The translations under genes were made by a program, and so were the position numbers. Below are positions 23,948-42,234 of a stretch of 46,909 bases of DNA, piece by piece. Below the pieces are notes generated by a model. That model searched no databases. It saw only the letters and a list, made by a program, of their open reading frames with translations, and had not been told where the DNA came from. Position 1 is the stretch's first letter. Each line of letters opens with the position of its first letter. This stretch comes from Candidatus Saccharimonadota bacterium (GTDB lineage Bacteria > Patescibacteriota > Saccharimonadia > Saccharimonadales > UBA4665): positions 1 through 46,909 of the forward strand of contig JAEUQV010000035.1 of assembly GCA_016789655.1 (NCBI GenBank), given 5' to 3'.

Positions 23948-24012
23948 CGTATGACCTCTATACGCTTATGTTTATATGTGCCAGTATATCACGCCACTTC
24001 ACAAGATGATAC

Positions 24013-25356
24013 CTATGGTGCGGTCGGTGTTTGAGCTGTGGGGCTAAGGGTCGTGCTCGCTTCGGTTGCCATCATTTGTTCTGCTTTTTGTGAACTGAGG
24101 CGCGGCAAGTTGATGTAAAATGTGCTGCCCTTGCCTATTTCACTTTCAACCCAAATACGTCCTTGATATAGTTCGATTATTTTACGGCAAATGAATAGCC
24201 CTAGACCAGTTCCGCCTACGGTACGTGTCGCGCTATTATCAACTCGATAAAATTTCTGAAACAGATGCGGTATGTCTTCCCCGGGTATACCTGGACCAGT
24301 ATCGCGTACATATACCTGCACTACTCCCTCATTACCAGTGAGGCCCAGGCTAACTTTTCCTTGTTCTGTATATTTACAGGCATTGTCAAAGATATTAGTA
24401 ATTACTTCTCGTACGCGATCTGGATCGACCTGCACGTAATACAACGGACGCACTATTTTGTTCATATCCATGGCAGTGCCACCGCCACCACTCGCGTCTT
24501 TTATTTCTGAATTGCCGAAAAGAAACTCCATGAACAAACCCTTCTTTTCGGCAGAAAACCGTAGGTCTTGGGCTAATTGCTCGAGGAACGTACCCATTTC
24601 GGTTACTTTCGGGTGGTTTGTGAGGCGTCCATCTTCTGCCTTGGCGCTAGTAAGCAGATCTTGGAAAAGCTGACCGAGATGTTTTGTACTGGCATGGGCT
24701 TTTTCAAGATAGTCGCGAGCGCGGTTATCGATAGTCGACACTTTGCTATTGAGTGCGAGGCTTAGGTATCCTTCTATAGCGGCAACGGGGGTGCGCATCT
24801 CATGGCTAGCGGTACTTATAAACTCAGCTCTGCGGTCTTCTTCGCCTCGCTCCTGGCTTACGTCGCGAAAAATTGCTACGAGGCCAGTCGTTTTTTTATC
24901 GGCGTCTAATAGGGGTGAGACGCTGAAATTACTTGCGATAGAGGTTCCCGATTTGGTCTGTAGAGTTACGGAGTTGTCATGAATTTGTTGGCCGCTCGCA
25001 AAGGCTTTGGCAAGCGGCGTTTCTTCTGGTGCCATAGGTTCGCCTTTTGCATTGGTGAATTTCAGCACTGAGTGCCAGTCAAGATTCTCTGCTTCCTGCC
25101 GACTCCAGCCGGTTATATTGGCTGCTCCTTGGTTGAAGTGTTGGATAACCTGCTGTTCATCTATCAGGATGACGCCGTCTTGTATGGCGCCAAGGATTAT
25201 ATCTGATTTAACCTTCTCGCTCCGAAGAGAGCTAGCGAGCTTGGTTTTATTGGCCGAATCTTTACGCGCAAAGCGGCGCTTAGAAAGCTGCCAGAGCAAC
25301 ACACCGCTCAGCGACAAAGCTACTACCCCACCACCGATAATAAAGTAATTCTGCAT
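24013..25356 (-). CDS. sensor histidine kinase with PAS domain
   Basis: 447 residues from the ATG at 25356; an upstream in-frame start at 25395 would lie above a TATACT box, and AGGAAA precedes the chosen one. One N-terminal membrane segment (FIIGGGVVALSLSGVLLW, residues 5-22) is followed by a PAS domain (about 50-165; GVILIDEQQVIQHFNQGAANITGWS). Then come HisKA with the phosphorylated His in STASHEMRTPVAAIEGYL, and HATPase_c with N (ITNIFDNACKYTEQGK), G1 (DTGPGIP), F (FQKFYRVD) and G2 (GGTGLGL) boxes. There is almost no extracellular part, so a cytoplasmic or membrane signal is sensed. Its partner is encoded immediately downstream. Confidence 0.93.
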   Translation of the reverse strand: MQNYFIIGGGVVALSLSGVLLWQLSKRRFARKDSANKTKLASSLRSEKVKSDIILGAIQDGVILIDEQQVIQHFNQGAANITGWSRQEAENLDWHSVLKFTNAKGEPMAPEETPLAKAFASGQQIHDNSVTLQTKSGTSIASNFSVSPLLDADKKTTGLVAIFRDVSQERGEEDRRAEFISTASHEMRTPVAAIEGYLSLALNSKVSTIDNRARDYLEKAHASTKHLGQLFQDLLTSAKAEDGRLTNHPKVTEMGTFLEQLAQDLRFSAEKKGLFMEFLFGNSEIKDASGGGGTAMDMNKIVRPLYYVQVDPDRVREVITNIFDNACKYTEQGKVSLGLTGNEGVVQVYVRDTGPGIPGEDIPHLFQKFYRVDNSATRTVGGTGLGLFICRKIIELYQGRIWVESEIGKGSTFYINLPRLSSQKAEQMMATEASTTLSPTAQTPTAP

Positions 25357-27703: not shown

Positions 27704-28486
27704 CTACGGCTGGAAGACACCGCCAAAGACTTGCCATGCCAGAGCACTTTTGGCCACCAGGCTTAGTACAATGTATACCTTTTCGCCGTACAGGTAGTTA
27801 GCCCACTTGCCTATGCGCTTATACTGTAGCCACATGTTGATGGCGAAGCAGTTAAAGAACAAGAAGATACTGGCGTAAATGCCATACACAAAACCGGGCA
27901 CTCCATTTTCGCTGTACATGTTTGCGGCCCACACGTATATACCGAAGGCTATCCAGGGTACGATGCCAGCAATGCAACCAACTACATAACTCAGCCATTC
28001 CGGGCGGTTTTTACCTTGATTCACGACCTCCATGACCAGTCCCAGGAGGTTCATAACAGCAACCAACGTAAATAGCATAAGCAGGCTGGCAAGGTCGCTC
28101 ATGCCACTCAGCAAAGCAATGGCTACCATCATGGTGCTAGCGCTTACACTGTATTCGTACCAGCGAGCCTTATTTATGCCTTTTTTCAAGTTTGCCAAGT
28201 AGGTTGGCTGGTAGACGGTTGTAATAATAACGTGTGCTAGCGCAGACATGAACAAAAAGCTGGCCACCAACCACGCAAAATTAATACTAAACAGTTGCTG
28301 GGTTGCTGGCAGTAAAGATTGGCTAGCAACGTCGTATGACAAGAAGTTGACGGTGATGTCATACGATTTGTTGGTGTCGAGCGCTGCAACAAGCGCCACC
28401 ATCGTAACACCCTGCAGCAGGTGTAGCCACAGCCCAACCTGGTTTAGTCTAAGTAAGGATGCGTTTGAGATAGTTTTGTTACTCAT
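27704..28486 (-). CDS. heliorhodopsin
   Basis: 260 residues with seven hydrophobic segments and the heliorhodopsin signature. The retinal Schiff-base Lys246 sits in helix 7 (VYIVLSLVAKSALAWQVFGG), and the counterion-position Glu111 in helix 3 (RWYEYSVSASTMM). His22 and His85 match the two conserved histidines of heliorhodopsin helices 1 and 2, and MNLLGLVMEVVN follows in helix 4. Type-1 pump motifs (DTD, NDQ) are absent. Heliorhodopsins are inverted in the membrane, with the N-terminus cytoplasmic; their role (light sensing, enzyme regulation or transport) is unsettled. A TATAGT box lies 7 nt before the ATG. No retinal-synthesis gene is in the window. Confidence 0.93.
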   Translation of the reverse strand: MSNKTISNASLLRLNQVGLWLHLLQGVTMVALVAALDTNKSYDITVNFLSYDVASQSLLPATQQLFSINFAWLVASFLFMSALAHVIITTVYQPTYLANLKKGINKARWYEYSVSASTMMVAIALLSGMSDLASLLMLFTLVAVMNLLGLVMEVVNQGKNRPEWLSYVVGCIAGIVPWIAFGIYVWAANMYSENGVPGFVYGIYASIFLFFNCFAINMWLQYKRIGKWANYLYGEKVYIVLSLVAKSALAWQVFGGVFQP

Positions 28487-29044
28487 AAGCAGTACTATAG
28501 CACGTCTGCTTGCGCTTTGGCATGAATAGGTAGAACCGAGTTGGTATGAAAGGCACGAGAGTATTCTATGTCTTCTAGATGACGATTTGCTTTATTGTCG
28601 CACGGCGATAGGAGCAAGCCACTGTACGCTCCCCCCCCTTACGAACCCTATCCCCCAAAATTGACTCTTGGTATTGCTTCCTCGTGACTAATCATTTTAG
28701 TTCTGTCAAATAGTTCTCTGAGATATTAGCAAAACTTCGTTTATTATTGCGTGGGCGTTGCCTCATACGGACTAACCGGGCCATTCAGTTTTTCGTAATC
28801 TTTTCCGCTGTATAAATCAGCAACGTGTTAAACACCGAAACCGACTGCCAAACTTGGTACTATACCTTCCCCTGCTCGTAGAGGGTTGTCCTGTAGCAGA
28901 TGGTGAAGATGTAGATTTGCTTTTTAACTCAAAACACGGCAGCTGATATTACCACACCCACTCTGCGTTTTAGCTGCATTTGAATCACCTCTATCAACAA
29001 AAGGGTGATCGGGGTGCCAGTCTACCTTTGTTATAATCATACTT
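28487..29044. other. gene-free interval with a possible decayed gene fragment
   Basis: No intact ORF. On the minus strand around 28750-28870 there are coding-like but stop-interrupted stretches in two frames (for example YSGKDYEKLNGPVSPYEATP), suggesting a gene remnant of unknown identity. The two ends carry the TATAGT (28494-28499, minus) and TATAAT (29032-29037, plus) boxes of the flanking genes. A run of nine C residues occurs near 28630. Confidence 0.35.
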
Positions 29045-29761
29045 ATGAGAAACGAACCTGTGCAGGTTATATCTTTATACCTCGATGATTCAGGTGTGTT
29101 TACTATAGGTGAAAAGTCGAAATTTTTCGTCTACGGTGGCTACTCTTTTACTAATGATAAAGATAGACTGACCGCAAAAAATGTATATAAAAAGAGGGTG
29201 TTACAGATTAAGGCAGGTCTAGGCCTTGGTGCCGACGACGAGCTGAAAGCCGCAATGCTAAATGCAAAGCACAAACGATCTTTATTCGAAATATTGAAAA
29301 ATTATAACTCTCTGGACTGTGCGGTAAATATCGACAATGTGTACCCAAGTATTTTGGAAAACAAGCTCTCGGTGCATAGGTACAAAGATTACGTGTTAAA
29401 ACGGCTTATAAAGATAGAAATAGAGCGACTAATATCCGCTGGCAGCGTGGACCCATTTAGAGCTGCCGCGCTACGCGTTTACATAGACCAGCAACACACA
29501 TCTACGGATGGTTACTATACCTTGTCAGAAAGTATCAGCGAAGAGCTAAACCATGGTATACACAATTTTGAATACGGCGTGTTCCATGCGCCATTATTTA
29601 AAGCACCGGTATCCGTAAAAATTGAATTTTGTGACTCAAAGCACCATTATCTGATACAAGCCAGTGATATTCTTGCGAACAGGGCTTTTACTGCCTACAA
29701 CTTTAACCTTTCGAAGCTCATGCAAGACATCCCGCATCACAACCACTTGGATATGCCATAA
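29045..29761 (+). CDS. DUF3800 domain protein
   Basis: 238 residues. The N-terminal VISLYLDDSGVF with FFVYGGYSF, and the C-terminal SKHHYLIQASDILANRAF, are the two conserved blocks of DUF3800. This family has an RNase H-like fold with acidic residues (the DDSG pair and the late D of ASDIL) proposed to bind metal, and it is often found in mobile or defence-associated loci. The biochemical role is unproven. TATAAT lies 7 nt before the ATG. It is the first gene of the accessory region. Confidence 0.8.
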   Translation: MRNEPVQVISLYLDDSGVFTIGEKSKFFVYGGYSFTNDKDRLTAKNVYKKRVLQIKAGLGLGADDELKAAMLNAKHKRSLFEILKNYNSLDCAVNIDNVYPSILENKLSVHRYKDYVLKRLIKIEIERLISAGSVDPFRAAALRVYIDQQHTSTDGYYTLSESISEELNHGIHNFEYGVFHAPLFKAPVSVKIEFCDSKHHYLIQASDILANRAFTAYNFNLSKLMQDIPHHNHLDMP

Positions 29762-29770
29762 CGTTTGTAC

Positions 29771-29912
29771 TTGTTGTGCGTATTGGGCTGTTGTAAAATG
29801 ATAATGCAGATGCGTTGCATACTGCCCAACAAGCTGGCTCCGATCGAATGATTAAGCGTATTGTAAATACGTCGACCAGCGTGGGACTCCGGCCGTAAGG
29901 CTGGAGTTTTTT
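29771..29912 (+). ncRNA. candidate small RNA with promoter and terminator
   Basis: TTGTTG (29771-29776) and TAAAAT (29794-29799) are 17 bp apart. A strong terminator follows: ACTCCGGCC (29886-29894), GTAA loop, GGCTGGAGT (29899-29907) and six T residues to 29912. The transcript would be about 105 nt, with smaller hairpins (GCAGATGC/GCATACTGC; CGTATT/AAATACG) and no ORF of note. The terminator could equally end the DUF3800 transcript, so the sRNA is tentative; the terminator itself is solid. Confidence 0.4.
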
Positions 29913-29940
29913 GTTAGGCAGGTGCGCTTCAAGACTATGC

Positions 29941-30056
29941 TGCGGGTGAGCGGGCTGTCAACCTAGCGGGTTCGTATCCCGCGCAATGACCACGAAAAAA
30001 AGCCTACCTTTCGGTAAGCTATTTTCGTGGTGAACGTGGTTGAATCGAATTGGAAC
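29941..30056. repeat. tRNA-3'-end-like junction, repeat copy A
   Basis: A plus-strand tRNA-like 3' fragment (GCGGG-TTCGTAT-CCCGC T-arm at 29966-29982, CCA at 29990-29992) leads into an imperfect 18-19 bp inverted repeat (29990-30030) whose right side ends TGG. A further 26 bp follow, including GAATCGAATTGGAAC. The last 56 bp (30001-30056) align without gaps to 34388-34443 with 48 identities. The tRNA-like part lacks a matching 5' half, so it is a fragment. I read this as an att-type junction of an integrated element. Confidence 0.55.
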
Positions 30057-30208
30057 GATATCCTTATGGAGTTCAATAGGCGCTATCACCTTATGAGGGG
30101 ATTATCTCTGGCATAATCCATTCGCTATGGTAATAGAACTAGTTTATGCTTGACACATGACGCTAATGCTTTTGTTATAAGCTGTTCAACTCTATAATAC
30201 AGCGTAAT

Positions 30209-33200
30209 ATGTCTGCGTTACGTAAAAGAGTATGGGATAAAATTAAGAGCTACTTTGCAAGGGATGAAGCCGAAAAGCAAACACACCCCCTAAAGTCTCT
30301 CAGGCCAGCAAAGAATATTGATGGCCACTCTGCTTATGTTGATGACATTGCTGAAGCGGTTGCTAATGATGACATTCTGAATATAGCCCTTACTGGTAGC
30401 TATGGCTCTGGTAAAAGCAGTATCCTTAGGGACTTCAAGGTTTCAACAAAGAAGAATAAAGTAGTCCAAATATCCTTCTCAAGCCTAGGAGCGAATATAC
30501 AGGGCTATATTAACAAGTCCGATGATGATGAGCACGAAAAGCTAAATAATCTCACAAACTTAATTCAAAAAGAGATTGTTAAACAGATACTCTTCAAGGA
30601 AAAGTACAAGAATATACCGTATTCAAAGTACAAAAGGGTCTCCAGTCCACGCTTGACCCTTGTTTTTCTTAACGCATCATTAATATCTATAGTTCTGTTG
30701 GCCGTATCATTCGCAAACGGGTGGCTGGCTCAACTGTTTAAAATTGCAGCTATATCGGATTTCTGGTGGCAAGTGGCACTCTGTGCAGACCTATTCATTA
30801 TCAGCACCTCACTTATTGCTATCTTTGTGCTTACGCTATCTGGCAAAATACGGATAGATAAAATTGGTGCATCTTCAATATCATTATCACTCTCGGGAAG
30901 TGCCAGTTATTTTGACGAATACTTAGATGAAATTATCTACTTCTTTGAAGCTGGACGATACAATGTGGTTATTTTTGAAGATATTGATAGGTTTGAGAGC
31001 CTTTACATCTTCGAGACCCTTCGACAACTAAACACCATTCTGAACAACTCAGAGCAGATAAAACAACCTGTGACTTTTATCTATGCAATCAAGGATAGTA
31101 TTTTTGCCAAGGAAGTTGTTGATGCCAAGAATGACCACAAGGAGCGAAGCGCAAACAGAACTAAGTTCTTTGACCTGATTATTCCAGTAGTTCCTTTCAT
31201 TACTAACGTCAACTCACAAGACCACATACTTCAAGTCTTTGATAGCGAGTACCGAGACATCATCAGAGAGCCAGCCTCAGTAGTGGCAAAGCATATTACT
31301 GACATGCGTCTTGTGGTTAACATCTATAACGAATTTCTGATATTCAAGGACAAGGTCGTACTCCCTGACTCAGGTTTATCACTAGATAAGCTGTTTGCTG
31401 TTGTTGCGTATAAAAACTGGAATCTGGATGAATTTGAAAAAGTGAAAGATGGTGACAGCTCAATCGATAAGGTTATCGCTGCACATAGCAAATATGTTGA
31501 CGAGAGAATACGTGCAATTAACTCTGAGATACGAGGTAAAGAAAGTGCGCTAAAGACTGTCAATACAATTGCCGAACGGTCACAAAGCCTAGGCAAAATT
31601 CTTACCGATTATATAGCTGACGTACTACGTCAAGTACAAGGCTCCGCTCAATCGTACAGTCTTAACAGCACCTCTTACAGCTTAGAAGATTTTGCAACCG
31701 AAGACTTTTGGAGCGACATCATTAAAGGTGGTAATACTACCACTCTTATCGTTACCTATCGAGCATCGACTGGCTACACACAAAACCTTACATTAACAGC
31801 AGCCGACATTAGCAGTGTCTGTAATGACAGTCTAGATAAAACCCAATGGGACACTAAAGCGGCAGAAGCTATTGAAAACGAAATAGGACTGCTACGAGCC
31901 GAAGCCAATAAGCTCCCATACCAAAGTATCAAGGAACTCATTCAGGAGTCGCCAGAGTTTCTTATTAAACTAAAGGAACTTGAGGGCGGTAAAGTTATTG
32001 CTGACGAGGTGGGATGGCAGCTCATTAAGGCTGGCCACATCGATACCGAATTCGTACATTACACTTCGCTGTACTACAGCACTAGCATGAGCCTCAAAGC
32101 TCGCAGCTTCTTGCTCAACAACATCCGCTTAAACAAACAATCTTTGCATCACAAGTTTGAAGATAATGACGACATAAAAGCACTTCTAGAGAAAATGGGC
32201 AGCACCTATCTTAGTGATAAGAGCATGTATAACATCTCAATCGTTGATTACTTACTCGGTAATGATGATTCAAGAGTAGATAAGGTTATAGCCAACTTGG
32301 CAGGCGGTGGTGCCGATGACATTGAATTTATCAATGCATATGTGAAAGAAGGTTCTGAGGTGACTAAATTCATCCAGCGGCTTGCTGCACAGTGGGATGG
32401 AATCTTTACATATATTGCAGGCAATGAGGAAATGGATGAGAAAAAGAAGGGGCGTTTCATTAGCCTTGCACTAACTGCTGGTTCTGAGAGTATTAAATAC
32501 AAAACTAGTCCATCCGTTAAAAGCTTTATTGAGGCCAATAAAACAAACATCCAGATACTCACAAACGACAATCAAGATAGCTCAGCTGTAGACGATGCTT
32601 GCCGATTACTGATGCAATTTGGAATTGAATTTGATGCCCTTGATGATCTGAACGAGCCAGCAATAGAAGCCGTAAAAGATTATGGCCTCTATAAGGTCAA
32701 TGAGCAGAATATGACGTCTATTCTTGGACGCCCTAGAGTACCTTTGGATACAATCAAACGCACAAATGAGTATGTTTACTCTCATCTGCTAGGGCATCTT
32801 GGTGAGTACGCAGACTTATTCCAGAATCGAGCAGGTTCAGAATATGCACTTGCAGGCGAAGACGGATTCGAAGCAGTAATTGACGAGGTGTCAAAGATTT
32901 CGATGGATGACTTAGGGTTAATTCTTGCTAATGCCGACCTGTCAAACTGTATTGTCCAAGATATTAATAAACTGGGCTCAGATACATGGCCTCTATTGGT
33001 TGAGAATGTCATCCTGTCCAACACATTAAGTAATGTATTAACTTACTACGAGCTGTCACATGCCGATGACAAGACTGTAATAAGTGACCTATTGGCCGAA
33101 TATCTTAATACTTCAGAAACAATCGTACTCGATAAAGACTTCAGTGAGTACACTCTAGAAAATGTGAAGACCTTCATCTTAGCCGTGCTAGATAGCTCAA

Positions 33201-33880
33201 AGATTAACGTAGATACTACTGTTAACATAGTGCATGATTGCTACAAGGGTGGATATATTGGTGTATCAGAAATTAGAGCTCAGGACGGTACTTTATACGG
33301 AGAGTTACTGTCAAAGAACTGCATCGAAGATACTCAAGCAAACTTCGAAGCAATACGAAGTCTTAAATGGGAAACGAAGAGTGCATACATAGCTCATTCG
33401 CAGAAGTTTATAGAGTATATAGATGCGTTAAATCTGAATTCTGATGAGCTGAATAGCATTGCAGATGATAATTCGATACCTGATGCAGTAAATGAATATA
33501 TTGTTGATAATATAACCCAGTACGCATCAGAACTTTCTATACATTCAGCAGCAAACTTTGCTGAGTTCGCATTAAGTAAATCAAAAGTACTTAGTGCCGA
33601 TGCACTTAAAGTTATCCTTGACGGTGCTAGCAAGGAAACTAGTATCAAGCTTATAGGTCTAGCCCTGAGCAACCTCGACTTTTCAAATATGCTCACACTT
33701 ATGCCAGTTGTTGGCGGAGAGTATAAGAAGTTATCAGAGAAAAACAAACGACCATCATTCGAGAACACTGACTACAACTTAAACCTTATTACCCGACTCA
33801 GAGAACTGGGATTAGTGAGTAGTTACGAATTAAAAGATAATGAAACAAAAATCAAAGTAGTCATGAAATCACGATGGTAG
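30209..33880 (+). CDS. YobI/KAP-like membrane P-loop NTPase, 1223 residues
   Basis: The N-terminal HPLKSLRPAKNIDGHSAYVD block and Walker A (GSYGSGKSS, 63-71) are typical of YobI-like P-loop NTPases. Two membrane segments (about 149-169 and 186-210) lie between Walker A and Walker B (VVIFEDID, 253-260), the arrangement of the KAP NTPase family. The C-terminal 950 residues are predominantly helical, without a recognised catalytic motif, and may be a sensor or scaffold. KAP members include phage-exclusion proteins such as PifA; an anti-phage role here is inferred. A TATAAT box is 10 nt upstream of the ATG. It is the only gene between repeats A and B. Confidence 0.82.
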   Translation: MSALRKRVWDKIKSYFARDEAEKQTHPLKSLRPAKNIDGHSAYVDDIAEAVANDDILNIALTGSYGSGKSSILRDFKVSTKKNKVVQISFSSLGANIQGYINKSDDDEHEKLNNLTNLIQKEIVKQILFKEKYKNIPYSKYKRVSSPRLTLVFLNASLISIVLLAVSFANGWLAQLFKIAAISDFWWQVALCADLFIISTSLIAIFVLTLSGKIRIDKIGASSISLSLSGSASYFDEYLDEIIYFFEAGRYNVVIFEDIDRFESLYIFETLRQLNTILNNSEQIKQPVTFIYAIKDSIFAKEVVDAKNDHKERSANRTKFFDLIIPVVPFITNVNSQDHILQVFDSEYRDIIREPASVVAKHITDMRLVVNIYNEFLIFKDKVVLPDSGLSLDKLFAVVAYKNWNLDEFEKVKDGDSSIDKVIAAHSKYVDERIRAINSEIRGKESALKTVNTIAERSQSLGKILTDYIADVLRQVQGSAQSYSLNSTSYSLEDFATEDFWSDIIKGGNTTTLIVTYRASTGYTQNLTLTAADISSVCNDSLDKTQWDTKAAEAIENEIGLLRAEANKLPYQSIKELIQESPEFLIKLKELEGGKVIADEVGWQLIKAGHIDTEFVHYTSLYYSTSMSLKARSFLLNNIRLNKQSLHHKFEDNDDIKALLEKMGSTYLSDKSMYNISIVDYLLGNDDSRVDKVIANLAGGGADDIEFINAYVKEGSEVTKFIQRLAAQWDGIFTYIAGNEEMDEKKKGRFISLALTAGSESIKYKTSPSVKSFIEANKTNIQILTNDNQDSSAVDDACRLLMQFGIEFDALDDLNEPAIEAVKDYGLYKVNEQNMTSILGRPRVPLDTIKRTNEYVYSHLLGHLGEYADLFQNRAGSEYALAGEDGFEAVIDEVSKISMDDLGLILANADLSNCIVQDINKLGSDTWPLLVENVILSNTLSNVLTYYELSHADDKTVISDLLAEYLNTSETIVLDKDFSEYTLENVKTFILAVLDSSKINVDTTVNIVHDCYKGGYIGVSEIRAQDGTLYGELLSKNCIEDTQANFEAIRSLKWETKSAYIAHSQKFIEYIDALNLNSDELNSIADDNSIPDAVNEYIVDNITQYASELSIHSAANFAEFALSKSKVLSADALKVILDGASKETSIKLIGLALSNLDFSNMLTLMPVVGGEYKKLSEKNKRPSFENTDYNLNLITRLRELGLVSSYELKDNETKIKVVMKSRW

Positions 33881-34377
33881 ATGGGGTGCGGTAGGGCTCG
33901 CCAAGTGTAGCAGACTAAGTCCTGTTTATCTGGGTACTACTTTATACCTTAAGCATAACATAAGCAAAAAGCGAAAAAATCCATACTTTCACCTCTGTAA
34001 ATTGGCAGGTTTCAAGCAGTTTTTGGTTATAGCTGACTATATGTTCTAGTAGCTTGTAGGGATAATCTTACATGGTTTGCGAGGGTTATTCTTGTGCAGG
34101 TAGGCGAAATGTGAATTGGGAAGTCCGCCATGCTGGTGAGCTTCCCTCCTGCGGGCTATCGCGCGGCTCTGCCGCACTCCTTCCTGCGGTGCTCGCTAAA
34201 AACATGCAAGCACGTTTTTCGCTCCGTTCATCGTTCGTCGAACCCTAAAGGGTTCTTGTCGCCCTCTGGGGGGTGGCCTGCAAGCTGGCCCGCACTGCGT
34301 TGTGCTCGGAGTGAACTCCTGCGCGCAACTCCGTTGGCGTCGTACCCGCTTCGTGTGCTCAATCTCCAAAGAGATTA
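33881..34377. other. gene-free interval ending in a palindrome-dense GC-rich array
   Basis: 33881-34128 is AT-rich without a gene. 34130-34377 is GC-rich and packed with short palindromes: GAACCC/GGGTTC around TAAA near 34238-34253, a near-perfect AAAAACATGC/GCACGTTTTT hairpin near 34197-34218, GGCC-rich hairpins near 34275-34295, and AATCTC/GAGATT near 34361-34376. A 96-codon ORF here is a compositional artefact. It leads directly into repeat B. Confidence 0.5.
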
Positions 34378-34443
34378 CCAAGAATATAGCCTACCTTTCG
34401 GTAGGCTATATTCTTGGTGACCCTAATAGAATCGAATTGGAAC
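34378..34443. repeat. tRNA-3'-end-like junction, repeat copy B, with a perfect 18-bp palindrome
   Basis: The 18-bp arms 34378-34395 and 34400-34417 are perfect inverted copies around TTTC, beginning CCA and ending TGG. The sequence then reads TTGGTGACCC, identical to the minus-strand 3' end of tRNA-Glu at 40970-40979, followed by GAATCGAATTGGAAC as in copy A. Copy B thus shares its hairpin with A and its tRNA end with the tRNA-Glu gene, as expected for a boundary between two adjacent integrated elements. Confidence 0.65.
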
Positions 34444-34528
34444 TCTATCTTATCAGAGATTGCCCGCTGGTGGGGTTTACTCCGTGATTTACACCTTGGT
34501 GGTTCCTACCTAGGAGCGACTAGAACCT

Positions 34529-34921
34529 ATGCGTAATTTTCAGACTAGGCGGGGGGAGAGCCCCCAAGGAACCCTCATTGCCCTTGATCCCAGACAGGAG
34601 AAGTTTCTTGAGCTCTATTTTAGCGTATCAAGCCCTACATTTGGAAATTGTTACCAGTCCGCAATCAGCGCGGGTTATACCACCGAGACGGCGCGCAACT
34701 TGATGCACAACCGCCCTAAGTGGTTATCGGAAAAACTCGGACAAATGCAAACTATGGAGCCAGAGCTTTTGCTACTCAAGCTGACAGGTATCATCAATGA
34801 CCGCGCGGAAACCACGCAGAACAAGCTCCGTGCCATCGACATGATGATGAAGCACTATCAGATGTTCGGCGTGCAAAATGTGACAGCATTTCAGCTAAAT
34901 ATCCAAAGTGTTCTAGATTAG
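34529..34921 (+). CDS. terminase-small-subunit-like HTH protein
   Basis: 130 residues. The first half (ALDPRQEKFLELYF, then NCYQSAISAGYTTETARNLM, about 18-60) resembles the helix-turn-helix DNA-binding part of phage terminase small subunits (PKQxxFxxxYL...NAxxAAxxAGY...TAxxxx). The second half is helical. There is no large terminase or capsid gene nearby, so it more likely acts as a DNA-binding regulator or recognition factor of the integrated element. It stops 27 nt before the 1039-residue membrane protein and may be co-transcribed with it. Confidence 0.6.
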   Translation: MRNFQTRRGESPQGTLIALDPRQEKFLELYFSVSSPTFGNCYQSAISAGYTTETARNLMHNRPKWLSEKLGQMQTMEPELLLLKLTGIINDRAETTQNKLRAIDMMMKHYQMFGVQNVTAFQLNIQSVLD

Positions 34922-34948
34922 CCATTAGGGGTGGTAAAATCGAGGTAG

Positions 34949-37900
34949 ATGAAAGTCCCCGACAAAATCAGTAAAGTCGGGTGGGCGGCTAAGAAGAAGC
35001 TAACTAAAATCGTGCAATCTGCACGTCGTAAATCCCACGCCCTCAAAGAACGGGTACTGAAGCTACGGCAAATTATCAAGTCAGCATCCATGTCCCTGTG
35101 GCAGAAAGTCCTTTCGTTATATAGGCGTGTGCCTTGGTTTGTGATAAGAATTCTGATCACTCTTGTTCTAATCTGTGGTGCCATCTGGGGCGTATGGCAG
35201 CTGTGCCTGCTTGATTTATCGAATCCAGGAATACCAGACAGTCTAGCTAATCTCGCCAAGAAGATATTGACCGCAAAACCGCAACTTCAATACATATCGG
35301 ACTTAGCTGCTTTTACGGGCGTTATCCTGGCGATTGCCGTACCGCTCGGTATTGATATTGTCCAGAAGGTTTCTGGCTATTACGCAGGCTCACGAACCAT
35401 TCGTGAACGGTTACAGCACGAATGGCAGATGGAATGGATGGTGCCGATTTATCTTATGACGGTTCTCCTTGCACTCACTTCTAGGTTTTTCTTTATAGAT
35501 ATATCCGTTCATCCCGAGTTTCAGCGCGCTGTGAGCTATGTCCTTCTGCTTTTGCTGTTCATTGGATTACTCGTATTTGCCTGGTATTTGAATCGGCTTT
35601 ATGTATACACACTGGATCAGAAAAAATTGAAGTTGGAGCTTAGCGCTGGTCTTGTTTCAGCTATTTCCAGAAAGAAAAAAAGCAAATATCTAGATCTGAT
35701 AGAGGCATATGGTGACTTGGTGGTTTCGGAGGCGCGCAACGCAAACCTCAAAACCCTCATCGACGAAAGCCTGCCATTCCTTGAAGATCGTATAAAACAG
35801 ATGATACCGCGAGGCGATTTGGAAGACGCTGAAAAATTCCTGCTTAGCGATGAGTTTTTCGAGATATTCAATAAGGGCAAGCAACGAAGAAAACCCGCCA
35901 AGGCTTCTTCTCAACACCCTGACGATGCTTTGGCGGACAGCACACTTGCTGCGTTTGACGAAGAGGCGTACGGCAAAATTATTGATTTCCAAGAAGAGGC
36001 CAAGATGAGGCTCTATTTTGATCCTGACCGTTATATGCTGGCATATCTCTCCACTATCCAGCAGATTATACGGGTATACCAAGAAGGCTTGAACAGCAAG
36101 AATGATGACCTAACTACCAAGGCAGTTTACTCACTAATAAGGATACTAAGTTACTTCGCCCGTGAGACTGAGCGCGGTTTTTATATTGAGCTCCTGCTGC
36201 GACGGTTGGCTGTGATCGCACGACAATCAGCTAAGGCAAATGATGTGTCAATGCATGCTGCGGCTGGTCATTGGTATACTTCAATTGTTTTCGACAAGTA
36301 TGAAGATGAGAAATACAGCTTCCAGTTGGAGTATCTGAATATATGCGACCGTGAGCTGTATTCTACTCTCAAGTTCATCGTAGACGGCAATCATAAGCAA
36401 CTATTTACTTCATTTGTCGGTTACTTAGTGGACGGTCTGCATGAACCGCTGTACTCCGAATCTGTATGGGACTTGGGGCACATGCCTCTCCGCGAAGACT
36501 TTGAAAAGTATCAGATTAGCGGCAAGGCCGATGAAGTCGAGAAAGTAATCAAAGAACTTGATAATTCTACGGGTGCAGTCAACTCAATTGAACAGGTTAG
36601 AAACTGGCAGAACAGGCTTCAGGAGCTCAAGAAGCTCGTGCGCCCATTATTGAAGCCTGAAAGTAAAATCAAAGCCGACAAGCTAACAAACAAGCTAGCT
36701 CGTGATATTGAGGAGATTTATAAGCATGCAAATCTCAGGGAACTTGTCTTCTCGCTTGGCGCATACTGCATGTTCAAAAAGCGCTATGACTTCGTCAAGG
36801 AAGTATTTGAGTATAAACAGCCGTCAGATTCAGATGCCTCGTGGGGAGGAAACGATATACAACCCGAAACGGTAGCAGGCGTTACGCGCTTCTATTTTCA
36901 GCATGGATCTTCACGTCGCGACGTAAATTTCTGGGAAGGTCATCATGGCAGTGGCATCTACACAAAGCGATACTTTATCTGTTTGTTAGCTCGCGCAATA
37001 TCGCGGAATCCTGAGGAGACTGTGCAGCTGGGCAATCTCACTCCTACGCGCCTTAGCGACATAAATTATTCTTATGATGGTTTGAAGCAAGTAGCGGCGG
37101 ATATAGCGAACGATGAAGAGCTCCTACAAACAATGGGGCTACAACAGTCACTAATTACTGACAAAGTGTTGCCCATGCTCGATACCATCAATGAGCAAGC
37201 TAAAAGCCAGCTTTTGGCCATAGAGAACAATCGCGGCATCAGCATCGATAAGGTCAAAGAATTTCGCGAAGAAGCAGCCCAGAGATATGAAAAAGAAACA
37301 CACATACGGTCGCTGCTGGCCAAATACGGCAAAGTAGAAGACGAAACCCAGCGTCGCTATGTAGGTGAAATTCTACGGTATGGTATATCGCGAGTCGATG
37401 AAAAGGCTGTATTCTTCGACGAGTGGTACGTATCATACGGAGAATGGGGTCATCACTACGGTGAAGACCTGGGACGCTCCGAAAATAACGCGCTATACCA
37501 GGAGATCAAATCTAGATGTCGCGTCAGCACGAGCATCAATACAATCGAAAAAGCCGTACGAGCTTGCGATGCGCCAGTCATCCTAGCGCCAACGCGCAGC
37601 TTATTCAGATATGAAGATAGTTCAAAGTTCATACCGAATTGGCGGGGTGCAGAAATAAAAATACCAGAAGCAGAATGGGATGGGTTTGCTGGGGCATACA
37701 TAGTGGATGGCAAGCATGTCCCTGTCTTTGAAATCGCATACTTCCCGCGATCAGATAAAGAAGTGGCGGTTGTAGATATGAAGAAGATGCCAGTCCTAAG
37801 ATCACTATCCCCGCTTGCCGACGACGATCCTAAGGCTGAGCGTAAGGGTAACCTAGCAATTAGTGTGCAAGCCTTTTCAGAGGAAACGGCAATGACTGAC

Positions 37901-38068
37901 GATTTTCTTGCAAAACCACCTGAATGGCTTCAGAAGGTAGGAGACTCCACGGCTCAGCGTCAACATCTTATGACTAAGGTACTGATTCAAATATATGAAC
38001 GCTACGAGCTGACGCGCAACCGCTTCAAACTAGGTTATCTTATAGATATAAAAGTTGACGGCAAGTAA
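34949..38068 (+). CDS. large membrane protein of unknown family, 1039 residues
   Basis: A very basic N-terminus (1-60, many Lys/Arg) precedes four hydrophobic segments (about 63-85, 118-138, 164-184 and 195-215). Some 820 residues follow, mostly helical and charged, with no visible catalytic, nucleotide-binding or repeat motif. The C-terminal third has conserved-looking blocks (VNFWEGHHGSGIYTKRYF; RYVGEILRYGISRVDEKAVF). The large soluble part probably faces the cytoplasm. GAGGT sits just before the ATG and TAAAAT 9 nt upstream. Its location in a recombinase island suggests an accessory, possibly defensive, function. I do not recognise the family. Confidence 0.75.
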   Translation: MKVPDKISKVGWAAKKKLTKIVQSARRKSHALKERVLKLRQIIKSASMSLWQKVLSLYRRVPWFVIRILITLVLICGAIWGVWQLCLLDLSNPGIPDSLANLAKKILTAKPQLQYISDLAAFTGVILAIAVPLGIDIVQKVSGYYAGSRTIRERLQHEWQMEWMVPIYLMTVLLALTSRFFFIDISVHPEFQRAVSYVLLLLLFIGLLVFAWYLNRLYVYTLDQKKLKLELSAGLVSAISRKKKSKYLDLIEAYGDLVVSEARNANLKTLIDESLPFLEDRIKQMIPRGDLEDAEKFLLSDEFFEIFNKGKQRRKPAKASSQHPDDALADSTLAAFDEEAYGKIIDFQEEAKMRLYFDPDRYMLAYLSTIQQIIRVYQEGLNSKNDDLTTKAVYSLIRILSYFARETERGFYIELLLRRLAVIARQSAKANDVSMHAAAGHWYTSIVFDKYEDEKYSFQLEYLNICDRELYSTLKFIVDGNHKQLFTSFVGYLVDGLHEPLYSESVWDLGHMPLREDFEKYQISGKADEVEKVIKELDNSTGAVNSIEQVRNWQNRLQELKKLVRPLLKPESKIKADKLTNKLARDIEEIYKHANLRELVFSLGAYCMFKKRYDFVKEVFEYKQPSDSDASWGGNDIQPETVAGVTRFYFQHGSSRRDVNFWEGHHGSGIYTKRYFICLLARAISRNPEETVQLGNLTPTRLSDINYSYDGLKQVAADIANDEELLQTMGLQQSLITDKVLPMLDTINEQAKSQLLAIENNRGISIDKVKEFREEAAQRYEKETHIRSLLAKYGKVEDETQRRYVGEILRYGISRVDEKAVFFDEWYVSYGEWGHHYGEDLGRSENNALYQEIKSRCRVSTSINTIEKAVRACDAPVILAPTRSLFRYEDSSKFIPNWRGAEIKIPEAEWDGFAGAYIVDGKHVPVFEIAYFPRSDKEVAVVDMKKMPVLRSLSPLADDDPKAERKGNLAISVQAFSEETAMTDDFLAKPPEWLQKVGDSTAQRQHLMTKVLIQIYERYELTRNRFKLGYLIDIKVDGK

Positions 38069-38128
38069 TTGCTTATTGAGAAGCTCAGGTTTCCAATTAC
38101 TCTATATCAACTGCTATAATTCAGCTAA

Positions 38129-39040
38129 ATGAACGCCTTCTTACTATCTCTTATTGCTCCTGCATTGTGGGCGGCCTCTAACCACTTCGATAAGTACATT
38201 GTCGGTAAATACTTCAAGTCTATGGGTGTGGGTGCGATGATGGTATTTTCGGCACTGGTCGGCCTAGCAGTTATGCCCGTTGCTTTCATCTTCCAAAAAT
38301 CCGCCTTTGATGTAAGTGTTATGACTGCCGTGCTAATCGCGCTCAACGGATGTCTTTACCTCGTTGCTGTACAACCATACTTGAAAGCACTGAAGATCAG
38401 TGATGCCTCGGCGGCGATACCGATGTTCCAAATAATACCTGTTATTACTTTTGTACTAGCGCGTGTGTTTCTAGGTGAGACGCTAACGACAAACCAAATG
38501 TTGGGTGGTCTTCTAATAGTCCTTGGTGCCATTATTATTTCATTCGAGATGGTAGAAGGTCGTAAGTTCAAACTTCGAGCTGATGTTCTTTGGCTCATGT
38601 TTCTCTCATCACTTATTTTTGCGGTCAACTTCCTGATCTTCAAAGTCTTCGCAATTGATACTGATTTCTGGACTACGACCTTTTGGGAAAGCGTAGGCTT
38701 TATTGGCTTTGGTATAGCCTTGCTTGCATTCGTAAAACCCTATCGCCGCGATTTCTTCAAAGTGTTTACTAAGAATCCGATGGCCACGGGTTTGAACGTT
38801 ACGAATGAGTTTATAAACATAGTTGCCAAGATAACGTTCAATTATGTGTCATTACTTGCGCCGCTGACCCTGGCATGGATAGGAGTGGGCTTTCAGCCCG
38901 TGTTTGTACTGTTTTATAGCATTCTATTGGCGGCCTTTGTGCCGCATATCAGCAAGGAAAATGTTGCAGGTAAACACCTCATTCAGAAGGTAACATCCAT
39001 CGTGATTATGCTTATCGGTGCCTACATACTCAATCTGTGA
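38129..39040 (+). CDS. EamA/DMT-superfamily transporter
   Basis: 303 residues with about ten membrane helices in two halves, as in drug/metabolite transporters. The first half starts LLSLIAPALWAASNHFDKYI and contains QPYLKALKISDASAAIPMFQIIPVITFVLARVFLGETLT, the classical end of an EamA repeat (GExxxxxQxxGxxLIxxGx). The second half ends with a degenerate repeat. The substrate cannot be told. TATAAT lies 8 nt before the ATG. It sits between the 1039-residue protein and the recombinase and appears to be cargo of the island. Confidence 0.85.
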   Translation: MNAFLLSLIAPALWAASNHFDKYIVGKYFKSMGVGAMMVFSALVGLAVMPVAFIFQKSAFDVSVMTAVLIALNGCLYLVAVQPYLKALKISDASAAIPMFQIIPVITFVLARVFLGETLTTNQMLGGLLIVLGAIIISFEMVEGRKFKLRADVLWLMFLSSLIFAVNFLIFKVFAIDTDFWTTTFWESVGFIGFGIALLAFVKPYRRDFFKVFTKNPMATGLNVTNEFINIVAKITFNYVSLLAPLTLAWIGVGFQPVFVLFYSILLAAFVPHISKENVAGKHLIQKVTSIVIMLIGAYILNL

Positions 39041-39185
39041 AAACTGCAATTATTTGATATAATATAGTTATATCGCTATACGCGGACGAAAAGCTATATA
39101 TCACTAAGTCTGCCTGAATGACAGGTGTGTAACCCGCCTCCTACGTGAGCGGACGGGAACGGACAAGAAGGGTCAGTATGACACT
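39041..39185 (+). promoter_or_regulatory. recombinase-operon leader with promoter-like box and hairpin
   Basis: A TATAAT box lies near 39057-39062. A long leader follows, with CCGC/GCGG and CCCG/CGGG segments around 39138-39165 that can form a hairpin. The leader may contain regulatory or recombination sites of the element; no ORF with a good start occurs in it. Confidence 0.35.
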
Positions 39186-39365
39186 TTGGCTTTTTCCGCG
39201 TCTCAACAAAACAAAAACCTCAAACCAATTATTACAATCAAAGAAGCTAGGAAACTTCTAGGTGCTGATGCGCACGCCCTAAGTGATGACCAAGTAGAAG
39301 AAATTATTAGCATGCTATCTTCTATGGCGAATGAGTTTTTACAAGATAACGGTTCCAAACTATAA
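39186..39365 (+). CDS. small protein translationally coupled to the serine recombinase
   Basis: An ORF of 59 residues from a TTG at 39186 (the start is uncertain; no in-frame ATG exists before internal Met codons). It contains a coherent helical segment: KPIITIKEARKLLGADAHAL, then SDDQVEEIISMLSSMANEFL. Its TAA overlaps the recombinase ATG as TAATG, the hallmark of coupled translation. Small DNA-mobility partners such as recombination directionality factors are often encoded beside large serine recombinases, so that role is inferred. The motif looks protein-like, not random. Confidence 0.6.
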   Translation: MAFSASQQNKNLKPIITIKEARKLLGADAHALSDDQVEEIISMLSSMANEFLQDNGSKL

Positions 39366-41020
39366 TGATAAATATGGAATCCGCCATACCAAAACGACTG
39401 CAAGAACAGAAGATGCGTATGCAGACCCAGCGTCCGAGTAAAGCAGTCGCGTATGTCCGCGTATCGGATGAGTCTCAAGTCGAGGGCGAGAGCCTAGATA
39501 CCCAGCGCGCTCGCATCCAGCAGTATGCAAACAATAACGGGCTGGAAATCGTAAAGTGGTTCGGTGATGAGGGCAAGTCGGCCAAAACCGTCACCAAGCG
39601 CGATGATATGATCGAAATGCTCAAATACTGCTCCCGTAACAAAGGCAAGGTTGGTTACGCTATCTTCTATAACATGAAACGTGCATCCCGCGATGCACCA
39701 AGCTATTATTCTGATCTCAAGGCAGTACTGAGTGGTCTTGGCATGGCCGTGCGCTCCGCTACTGAGCATATCGAAGACTCACCGACTGGTCGCTTTATCG
39801 AAGGTGTACTAGTACTCAATGGGCAGCTTGATAACGAAATCAAAGCGGGTACAACCATCGACAACATGCAGAGCATTGCGCGCCAAGGCTGGTGGCAACA
39901 TGGCTTCTTGGTGGGCTATGACATCGAGCGCGTGAAGGTCGGCATCAAACAGAAGCGAACCACGCTCAAACGCAACAAGGATGCGCGGATAGTCGCGGAG
40001 CTTTTCGCTGCTTTCGCACGGGGCGGCTTGACTCAGGCAGACATCAAACGGATGGCCAAAGAAAAAGGTCTAAAAAACTTCAAGGGCAAATATCTCGATG
40101 ACAATGCTGTTTATCGCATGCTCACCCAGCCAGCCTACGCGGGTTACATTTGTAGTAAGCATACCGATTACGAGATGCACGAAGCCCAACACATGAAAGA
40201 TGCAATCGTAAGCCTAGAAGTATTCCAGCGCGTACAGCATATTCTTGATACGTCTAGCCGTACACGAGTCGGTATCAAAGTAAATATACCGACCGAGGAG
40301 TTTGTATTGAAGCGGTTCGTACTCTGTCCGAATTGTAATAATCCAATGTATGCATCTAGTCCGCGTACGGGTGGCGGTAAATCTCACTCTCCGCGTTATC
40401 ACTGCGCACGACCGTCATGCAAAGGCTTGGTGCCATCAATAAAGGCAGAGACAGCCAACAACGCGTTCGCTTCACTACTCAAGGACATCCAGCCGTCTGG
40501 CTCGACGCTGAAGCTCTACAAAGAGATTCTCAACCGCACGGCTATGCGACAGCTTGATAATCTCAATCGACGCTTGAGCGATCTAAGAAGTAGTCTCAGC
40601 GCGCTCGATGAGGAGCGTAGCATTGCTATGCGCCGCTGGAATAAAGACGAGATGACCGATGCCGAGAAAGACGAGATTATTGCCACCATTGAATCTGACA
40701 AGGCCGAAAAGAAAGATCAGATCGCAAAGCTCGAAGAGCAACAGAGCGTCAAACAGTCACAGATCGACTACGCGATGAACTTCATGCATGATGCACATAA
40801 GCTATGGGTGGATGCGGACGCGGGCATGAGGCAAAGGTTCCAAAAAGCGATCTTCCCAGAGGGAGTGATACTAGACACCAAGACCATGCAGTTTGGAACC
40901 ACACTCATAAGCCCAATTTACAGATACGCACCAAATAAAAAAGACCTTTCCGTATCGGAAAAGTCCCTTTTGGTGACCCCTGCGGGGTTCGAACCCGCGA
41001 TCTTCAGGATGAGAACCTGA
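39365..41020 (+). CDS. large serine recombinase (site-specific integrase)
   Basis: 551 residues. Resolvase catalytic domain with the nucleophile Ser34 in VAYVRVSDESQ and the downstream DTQRARIQQYA...VKWFGDEGKSAKT block. Then come a recombinase domain (about 170-290), a zinc ribbon (CPNCNNP ... CARPSCKG, about 315-345) and a coiled coil (about 385-450). Such enzymes integrate and excise elements between attP and attB. The last 16 residues (TPAGFEPAIFRMRT tail) are encoded by the antisense strand of the tRNA-Glu gene, so the reading frame crosses the presumed attachment junction. The element's own stop would have been different. Confidence 0.93.
   Translation: MINMESAIPKRLQEQKMRMQTQRPSKAVAYVRVSDESQVEGESLDTQRARIQQYANNNGLEIVKWFGDEGKSAKTVTKRDDMIEMLKYCSRNKGKVGYAIFYNMKRASRDAPSYYSDLKAVLSGLGMAVRSATEHIEDSPTGRFIEGVLVLNGQLDNEIKAGTTIDNMQSIARQGWWQHGFLVGYDIERVKVGIKQKRTTLKRNKDARIVAELFAAFARGGLTQADIKRMAKEKGLKNFKGKYLDDNAVYRMLTQPAYAGYICSKHTDYEMHEAQHMKDAIVSLEVFQRVQHILDTSSRTRVGIKVNIPTEEFVLKRFVLCPNCNNPMYASSPRTGGGKSHSPRYHCARPSCKGLVPSIKAETANNAFASLLKDIQPSGSTLKLYKEILNRTAMRQLDNLNRRLSDLRSSLSALDEERSIAMRRWNKDEMTDAEKDEIIATIESDKAEKKDQIAKLEEQQSVKQSQIDYAMNFMHDAHKLWVDADAGMRQRFQKAIFPEGVILDTKTMQFGTTLISPIYRYAPNKKDLSVSEKSLLVTPAGFEPAIFRMRT
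40931..40973. terminator. bidirectional terminator-like hairpin between recombinase and tRNA-Glu
   Basis: CCAAATAAAAAAGACCTTTCC and GGAAAAGTCCCTTTTGG face each other around a short loop with one mismatch in the GC-rich part. Read from the tRNA side it ends in a T-rich run, so it suits tRNA-Glu termination. It lies inside the recombinase reading frame. Like junctions A and B it is bounded by CCA and TGG. Confidence 0.55.
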
Positions 41021-41047
41021 TGTCCTGGACCACTAGACGAAGGGGCC
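40971..41047 (-). tRNA. tRNA-Glu (anticodon CUC)
   Basis: A complete cloverleaf on the minus strand. The acceptor GGCCCCT pairs with AGGGGTC (one G-U); the D-arm region is TCTAGTGGTCCAGGA; the anticodon arm TCAGG-TTCTCAT-CCTGA gives CUC; the T-arm GCGGG-TTCGAAC-CCCGC is perfect; and the CCA end is encoded in the DNA (TGG at 40971-40973 on the plus strand). It overlaps the 3' end of the recombinase frame by 50 bp and is the likely integration target of the adjacent element. Confidence 0.95.
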
Positions 41048-41247
41048 AAAGTCGCTACGCTCCAATTTTCATTTGACATTTATCAATTTTCATTTGAGCT
41101 ACAACAGAGTAGCATATCTGTTACTCTGTGTCCAGGTAAGCTAAAAAATGTTAGATCTGCAGGTTGTAATGCTTATAAAAACGATCAAACCATAGAGCTG
41201 TAAAATAACATACAATTTCTCGAGGGCACCTACCGTATAATGGGTGG
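41048..41247. other. intergenic region upstream of tRNA-Glu and the ABC exporter
   Basis: It contains a direct repeat of CAATTTTCATTTGA (two copies 22 bp apart near 41062-41097) and a perfect 8-bp hairpin ACAGAGTA/TACTCTGT (41104-41129). A TATAAT box at 41236-41241 lies 6 nt before the ABC ATPase ATG, another leaderless-type start. Confidence 0.5.
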
Positions 41248-42234
41248 ATGGCTACGAAACATTCGCGTATATCTGCTAGTGTGGCAATCCAAGCGAAGGG
41301 CTTACGTAAATCTTACGGCGAACAGCAAGTATTGAAGGGTGTTGATTTCACGTTAGAGCAAGGCAGCATATTGGCGCTGCTCGGTCCGAATGGGGCTGGC
41401 AAAACGACAACCATCCGCATATTGAGCACTCTTTTGAAGCCAGATGAAGGTTCTGCTTCGGTCAATGGCTTTGATGTCGTTAAGAAAAGCGCCCAAGTTC
41501 GTGCCAGCATAGGCTTGACTGGCCAGTTCGCTGCTGTGGATGACTATATGACCGGTCGCGAAAATATCCTCATGATCGGTCAGCTGTATCACCTGCCAGC
41601 TGAAGATTTACCGGAACGAACTCGAGATTTACTCGAACAGTTCGACCTGGTAGATGCAGCTGACCGCCCTGCCCGTACGTATTCGGGTGGTATGAAGCGT
41701 AGGCTCGATCTGGCTATGAGCCTTGTCGCCTCGCCCGCCATTTTATTCCTCGATGAACCGACGACCGGGCTTGATCCGCGTAGCCGGCTCGCCCTATGGC
41801 ACATGATAAAAGAACTTGCCAGAGGCGGGACTACCATTTTGCTCACGACACAATATATGGAAGAAGCCGAATATTTAGCCGACAACGTCATTGTGATTGA
41901 CCACGGCCAAGTGATTGCAGAAGGCACGGTGAGCGAGCTAAAAGCCCAGGCCGGTGCCGAGCGTGTCGAAGTAACGCTGAAACGCGCGAAAGATCTGCAT
42001 GTGGTACGAAAGTTGGCTGGCGCCGAAGCTAGTTCAGATGAAGAAACACTGATGGTTACCGCTCCGGCACGAAAAGGCGCAGAGTCGCTTTATGAACTAT
42101 TAGGTAAACTCAACACGGCAAAAATCCCGCTAGAATCAGCAGCTTTGCGGCGCCCCACACTAGACGATGTCTTTCTTGCTCTAACAGGACATGCTACTGA
42201 AGAAGAAGCCGCAAAGGAGGCCAAGCATGCATAA
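41248..42234 (+). CDS. ABC transporter ATPase, DrrA-type (antibiotic/lipid exporter)
   Basis: 328 residues. Walker A GPNGAGKTT (about 48-56), Q-loop (GLTGQFAAVDDYMTGREN), ABC signature YSGGMKRRLDLA, Walker B ILFLDEPTTGLDP and the H-loop region (TILLTTQYMEEAEYLAD) are all present. The last 80 residues match the C-terminal extension (DUF4162) of daunorubicin-resistance DrrA proteins. It powers export through the permease encoded next, whose start overlaps its stop by 8 bp. A TATAAT box is 6 nt upstream of the ATG. Substrate unknown. Confidence 0.92.
   Translation: MATKHSRISASVAIQAKGLRKSYGEQQVLKGVDFTLEQGSILALLGPNGAGKTTTIRILSTLLKPDEGSASVNGFDVVKKSAQVRASIGLTGQFAAVDDYMTGRENILMIGQLYHLPAEDLPERTRDLLEQFDLVDAADRPARTYSGGMKRRLDLAMSLVASPAILFLDEPTTGLDPRSRLALWHMIKELARGGTTILLTTQYMEEAEYLADNVIVIDHGQVIAEGTVSELKAQAGAERVEVTLKRAKDLHVVRKLAGAEASSDEETLMVTAPARKGAESLYELLGKLNTAKIPLESAALRRPTLDDVFLALTGHATEEEAAKEAKHA

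Follow-up and report, generated by a model that had tools for sequence, protein, structure and literature searches.

We analysed a window of 46,909 nucleotides from a Candidatus Saccharimonadota bacterium, and found two tandem segments next to a gene for tRNA-Glu(CTC) (Table 1). The outer segment reaches from junction A (30001-30056) to junction B (34388-34443) and holds one long NTPase gene. The inner segment reaches from junction B to the tRNA and holds a large serine recombinase (LSR). The first-pass annotation had divided the region in this way, and gene and domain content confirmed the division.

Table 1. Features of the two segments and their boundaries, with positions in the window
Feature	Position	Strand	Description
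Hairpin A	29985..30031	-	terminator of the tRNA-Glu type, outermost part of the putative tandem insertions; CCA/TGG; z -7.7
Left end A	30028..30116	+	junction TGGT; putative tail frame VNVVESNWNDILMEFNRRYHLMRGLSLA, then stop; GTG at 30030
Cargo of cassette A-B	30209..33880	+	1223-aa YobI-type P-loop NTPase; PF20693, E 5e-101
Segment of ~190 bp	33882..34072	+	81% identical to an element on contig C3, where it lies on the inner side of different cargo
Hairpin B	34377..34418	-	right end of cassette A-B; terminator-like; CCA/TGG; z -10.7
Left end B	34415..34536	+	junction TGGT; putative tail frame VTLIESNWNSILSEIARWWGLLRDLHLGGSYLGATRTYA, then stop; GTG at 34417
Small terminase-small-subunit-like protein	34529..34921	+	PHROG 51, E 3.9e-6; adjoins the left end of the LSR element
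1039-aa cargo protein	34949..38068	+	without family match
EamA-type transporter	38129..39040	+	PF00892
Small ORF (KPIITIKEARKLLG...)	39186..39365	+	overlaps the LSR start
LSR	39365..41020	+	junction TGG at 40971; PHROG 95, E 9e-61
Right end of the LSR element	40931..40975	-	LSR codons doubling as a terminator-like hairpin behind tRNA-Glu; z -5.5
tRNA-Glu(CTC), CCA encoded	40971..41047	-	anchoring site; ARAGORN and Rfam RF00005

The NTPase of the outer segment resembles the defence protein Tmn (PADLOC, E 9e-63). The small protein beside left end B also matched PF03592 at 5e-5, under the Pfam cut-off, and weak terminase-small-subunit matches lie beside left ends in three relatives as well (L062 8556-9056, L064 9118-9513, L067 9651-10037). 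These genes possibly point to a link with phage satellites (PICI-like) or encode a recombination accessory factor. ORFs similar to the small ORF precede the LSR in L053, L062, L064 and on contig C3 of the same genome; for two relatives, no family match was found. A palindrome-like AAGGGTCANTATGACNCTTTGG, perhaps an operator, is conserved ahead of the small ORF and the LSR in the window (~39165-39190), L062 and L064.

Just outside junction A, a DUF3800 gene is followed by a DUF3800-I RNA (29045-29918; RF02969, 72 bits, cut-off 44). We looked for a left end of this unit and found none, so that it is possibly, but not necessarily, another cassette. A heliorhodopsin gene lies near the array (27704-28486; PF18761, E 1e-88). 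Megablast of 29000-41300 against plasmids returned nothing.

Junctions and a proposed exchangeable recombinase tail

Re-comparison upheld the earlier report that junctions A and B agree at 48 of their 56 positions, and the repeat reaches 67 nt at 82% identity. The sequence GAATCGAATTGGAAC occurs twice in the window when up to two mismatches are allowed, against 0.08 occurrences expected. Each junction consists of a strong hairpin, directly followed by TGGTGA and then by a stretch with TCGAATTGGAAC. The antisense 3' end of tRNA-Glu(CTC) reads TGGTGACCCC, and TTGGTGACCC, as previously noticed, is common to this 3' end and junction B. The layout of CCA, hairpin and TGG, also described before, was borne out by the folds: at all three sites, hairpins folded in the direction of tRNA transcription are closed by CCA/TGG, with energies of -26.1 (A), -33.4 (B) and -23.1 kcal/mol (tRNA site). 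The stem of hairpin B is a perfect 19 bp.

The view of A and B as tRNA-3'-end-like did not hold. Each instead combines a terminator-like hairpin with an adjoining element left end, and beyond TGG their likeness is mostly coding sequence for a recombinase tail rather than tRNA. Minus-strand tRNA pseudogenes were also considered as an explanation of the junctions, and rejected since no T-stem pairs were found by hand and a third-position pattern indicated protein coding. A conserved RNA was rejected as well: the only Rfam matches of the window at gathering score are the DUF3800-I RNA and the tRNA. In L010, L013 and L015, no Rfam match reached its gathering score.

The recombinase has the Resolvase (PF00239, 4e-19) and Recombinase (PF07508, 5e-10) domains, a zinc ribbon (PF13408, 3e-4, below the cut-off) and a predicted coiled coil, the set that defines an LSR. 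Its last 15 codons (VTPAGFEPAIFRMRT) fall in the antisense strand of tRNA-Glu, so that the protein reads ...SEKSLL up to the junction and VTPAGFEPAIFRMRT after it. When left end B was joined by script to the LSR 3' end, it read VTLIESNWNSILSEIARWWGLLRD... in the LSR frame. The shared left end codes for V....SNWN..L.E in one frame. Judged from these frames, the left-end peptide would be the C-terminal tail that the LSR carries in an excised circle. The AlphaFold2 model of the integrated LSR (mean pLDDT 76, pTM 0.37) has two long helices at 379-475 and predicted disorder from residue 521 to the end (521-551). The junction falls at residue 537 of this model, which would attach the exchangeable tail through a flexible linker.

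A search of the family found 29 LSR homologs in 26 of 92 genomes (E 1e-30). In 25 of them, the gene continues into the 3' end of a tRNA, read in antisense (10 Glu, 8 Met, 3 Gly, 2 Arg, 2 Leu). Among the other four, two stop at contig ends (L077, L090), one is interrupted and ends otherwise (L076), and the LSR on C3 (L099) reads into a left end. A left end lies upstream and in the LSR frame at 14 of 23 loci tested by script, in elements of the Glu, Met and Arg types; for the Gly and Leu types, this test found none. At 27 LSR loci from a wider scan of genome contigs, most of them outside the family, the upstream search gave no convincing left end. Further serine recombinases lie at 10106-11455 of L004 and at 22546-24264 of C3.

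Contig C3 belongs to the same genome as the window and bears a left end near-identical to left end A with different cargo. Here the reading frame of the LSR at 5593-7272 continues into the left end belonging to the next tandem element, and the tail of this LSR reads VTQVDQSWNNIVEG..., also given as VTQVDQSWNNIVEGIVRI.... The LSR of that next element (22546-24264) ends in tRNA-Glu(TTC) at 24224, where this second tandem pair of the genome sits. Thus, the antisense-tRNA tail and the cassette tail are both present in one genome.

In the wider scan, the close relatives are named as Candidatus Saccharibacteria/Saccharimonadia. An LSR overlapping a tRNA was flagged at 33 of 47 examined loci (65 in the scan), with the tRNA oriented oppositely at one of them, L256. 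Loci of this kind (L226-L273) occur in other Patescibacteria, actinobacteria and Sphingobium, with Daviesbacteria and Roizmanbacteria also represented, indicating that LSR genes ending inside an antisense tRNA are a wider habit. Compared with phages, the LSR matched 98 records, each over less than 80% of its length, and the 15 listed have 24-28% identity; viral contigs gave 80 relatives, mostly at 20-31% identity.

Left ends and cassettes across the family

We examined tRNA-Glu(CTC) genes in the same genus. In five genomes (L103-L107; 260 nt inspected), an A/B-type hairpin stands directly at the tRNA 3' end, and in a sixth (L108) the contig ends at this position. This suggests that the insertions have come to stand between tRNA-Glu and the terminator that belongs to it. 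A hairpin is also formed by the right end of the LSR element, so the tRNA would keep a terminator-like structure. The earlier proposal of two successive insertions at a tRNA 3' end is supported by the terminators standing directly 3' of the relatives' tRNA genes, by the second A-type left end with other cargo on C3, and by the same layout at tRNA genes of other Saccharibacteria. Synteny that would make all genes from A to tRNA-Glu ancestral was not seen. On sequence grounds, we regard segments A-B and B-tRNA as probable tandem insertions between tRNA-Glu and its terminator.

Two of the same-genus genomes (L106, L107) have miniature units, roughly 150-180 bp long, whose starts resemble tRNA-Glu and which lie between two such hairpins. 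These units, and a further one at 1315-1487 of L001, start with TGGTGACCCC and end in a terminator-like hairpin, resembling empty cassettes.

The DNA of junction A matched 12 of 93 family genomes (E 1e-3), some through the hairpin half alone. We then used the pattern TGGTGANCN9TCGAATTGGAAC with up to 3 mismatches, and found it in 54 of 92 genomes, compared with 16 of 92 (counted by hand from the table) for the backward control. A profile of the tail peptide had copies in 9 of 12 chosen genomes. Scanned with TGGT anchors, it gave 85 matches at 20 bits against 18 in a decoy run with other anchors, although some of the 18 may be real sites with a mutated junction. Since the profile scan alone is not clean, we relied on the DNA pattern.

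Left ends form arrays. The longest, in L055 (G068), has nine left ends spaced 0.5-1.1 kb apart, and in L053 (G063) at least eight fall in the stretch from 7 to 20 kb, next to an LSR that sits at tRNA-Glu. The cargo of the intervals includes YafQ-like, ParE and Phd families, NUDIX, transglutaminase-like and AHSA1 proteins; 3 of 10 scanned proteins were unmatched. In G068, which is 73% complete, no LSR match was found at E 1e-30. These arrays were seen in this Saccharibacteria family, the one family searched for them.

To relate left ends to tRNA genes, we grouped them by locus and strand into 45 groups. Within the sequence covered at each locus, a facing tRNA lies downstream in 24 groups, no group has a wrongly oriented tRNA alone, and most of the remaining 21 have less than 2.1 kb of downstream DNA. 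In 22 of the 24, the first six bases equal the antisense end of the tRNA (TGGTGA for Glu, TGGTTG or TGGTAG for Met, TGGTAC for Arg); L063 is off by one base and L069 is without clear match. Conservation is weak to the left of the junction, and the site is thus clearly defined in only one of its halves. At L119 (G022), two left ends 0.7 kb apart (8045 and 8719) are near-identical left of the junction, and their tails differ.

We also asked where similarity between genomes ends. The 116 BLASTN matches of at least 200 nt that connect loci of different genomes have 209 interior ends; 34 of these lie no more than 12 nt from a left end, against 2.8 expected at random. Eight matches are bounded by sites at both ends, but all are one 0.7-kb toxin cassette and the pairs are not independent. 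This cassette is found in six genomes of four genera (G044, G045, G009, G035, G055, G062) at 75-94% identity. A 1.4-kb stretch of G063, running from one left end to the next, is 90% identical to G046.

Left ends of cassettes lacking an LSR also look protein-coding. The least biased test used 66 distinct left ends chosen by the DNA pattern alone: 59 are open for 13 codons past the pattern in the tail frame, compared with 16 and 15 in the other plus frames and 36, 16 and 20 in the minus frames. The other seven have a stop within these 13 codons and a few further left ends have one inside the pattern (e.g. L056, L058, L060), suggesting that the tail is dispensable or decaying in some. In the tail frame, pN/pS was 0.38 (seven L055 copies, the two divergent units of the nine being excluded), 0.39 (eight copies of the VN type), and 0.57 and 0.58 (two other sets), compared with 0.45-0.66 in the codon-mirroring minus frame and 0.60-1.69 in the rest, in a test that leans to low pN because the sites were partly selected by the tail profile. 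For the VTL type, the ratio was equalled in 14 of 200 column shuffles.

Proposed model and known systems

Taken together, these data suggest, with a probability of roughly 0.8, that two site-specific mobile elements have inserted in tandem between tRNA-Glu(CTC) and its terminator, forming an array in which LSRs move the cassettes and have their own tails exchanged. The LSR would have its crossover site, NTGGT, within its own coding sequence, some 15 to 40 codons before the end, and would recombine this site with the 3' end of a tRNA. Integration would thereby swap the native tail, V....[ST].WN.[IL]..E[LI]..W, for an antisense-tRNA peptide, and excision from the chromosome as a circle would restore it. 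The same type of left end, without a recombinase, is found in the outer unit A-B and in many cassettes of relatives (~0.5-1.5 kb). Such units form tandem arrays at tRNA 3' ends, and presumably they are moved by the LSRs of neighbouring or resident elements. A unit inserted between an LSR and its tRNA would supply an in-frame tail of the native type, as seen on C3.

The tail may also influence the direction or activity of recombination. We tentatively extend the model to a serine-recombinase counterpart of the integron, an extension that we consider conceivable and somewhat doubtful. Here, the meaningless tail given by a tRNA neighbour would switch the LSR off or alter its direction, a cassette neighbour would restore the tail, and cassettes would be selected to keep a tail that promotes capture. 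The genomic position of the LSR gene would then be read out in its own protein, since the neighbour sets the tail. If this is true, a C-terminus rewritten by the recombinase's own product junction would be a simple candidate for directionality control, which is an open question for serine integrases.

The same units might instead be remnants of successive LSR insertions at tRNA-Glu that lost their recombinase, with tail coding inherited rather than selected. That A-B has its left end and inner segment in common with the C3 LSR element agrees with such an origin, as do the broken tails. Remnants would hardly account, however, for a site-bounded toxin cassette shared across four genera, or for the seven of nine single-gene L055 units that, tested jointly, keep the tail frame at the low pN/pS given above, and we consider this origin unlikely. 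The left-end peptide could also be made as a separate small protein, starting at its own junction NTG, and might for example act as a directionality factor. An NTG does precede the V codon at TGGT junctions and a TATAAT-like box lies close upstream of some of them (L008, L051, L136), but the CCA of the tRNA dictates this NTG, elements of the Glu, Met and Arg types have the peptide in the LSR frame, and the C3 LSR is naturally fused to such a tail. This makes a separate protein quite improbable. Finally, terminator- or REP-like repeats could have been spread by homologous recombination, with no site-specific recombinase involved. The hairpin half is indeed terminator-like and similar hairpins stand at ordinary tRNA genes, yet the conserved half encodes protein and has a fixed orientation towards a single type of tRNA, and LSRs are placed at the tRNA end, so that we give this explanation very little weight.

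The array model can be compared with several known systems. Archaeal suicidal (SSV-type) integrases also have the site inside the gene, and the part of PMC8371274 consulted calls them exclusive to archaea and describes tyrosine recombinases split in two halves. In both cases the crossover lies within the recombinase gene, so that integration alters the protein, which for our locus follows from sequence layout alone; the enzyme here, in contrast, is a bacterial serine recombinase of which only the last residues are exchanged. Genomic islands at tRNA genes (Islander type) likewise insert site-specifically and leave the tRNA intact, but according to the consulted part of PMC4383910 they are catalysed by tyrosine integrases. 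Our locus differs from them in its LSRs and multi-unit cassette arrays. The LSR-cassette arrangement was absent from the consulted part of PMC12884075, on tRNA targets of integrases. Titles and opening abstract lines in the open literature, with subscription journals mostly outside this scope, gave no description of LSR cassette arrays at tRNA genes. If the model is true, the system offers LSRs with predictable tRNA targets, and it would help explain the exchange of toxin-antitoxin and defence genes in cells with very small genomes.

Staphylococcal cassette chromosome (SCC) elements, which have Ccr serine recombinases, stand in tandem behind a single gene, at the 3' end of rlmH, with units that have or lack a recombinase and with varied cargo. 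Our arrays share this arrangement and the use of a large serine recombinase, and the nearest curated NCBIfam model is SCCmet_CcrB. However, the LSR of the window scores 66.5 bits against this model, whose cut-off is 900, which places it outside CcrA/B/C. The targets here are tRNA genes (tRNA-Glu) rather than the rlmH 3' end, the crossover lies inside the recombinase gene, and cassettes are as small as 0.5-0.7 kb.

Integrons comprise the tyrosine integrase IntI, an attI anchor and attC sites between cassettes. The arrays of L055 and L053 resemble them in having tandem small cassettes, with one gene or a toxin-antitoxin pair, one type of site and one orientation. A crude motif scan of the ORFs in 22 loci found no tyrosine recombinase. 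Between cassettes, where integrons have attC sites, the right side seen here is only weakly conserved. In contrast to integrons, the recombinase here is of the serine type, the anchor is a tRNA 3' end instead of attI, and the left end codes for a recombinase tail. If the model holds, gene capture in tandem arrays, best known from tyrosine-recombinase integrons, has also evolved with serine recombinases in a lineage of very small genomes.
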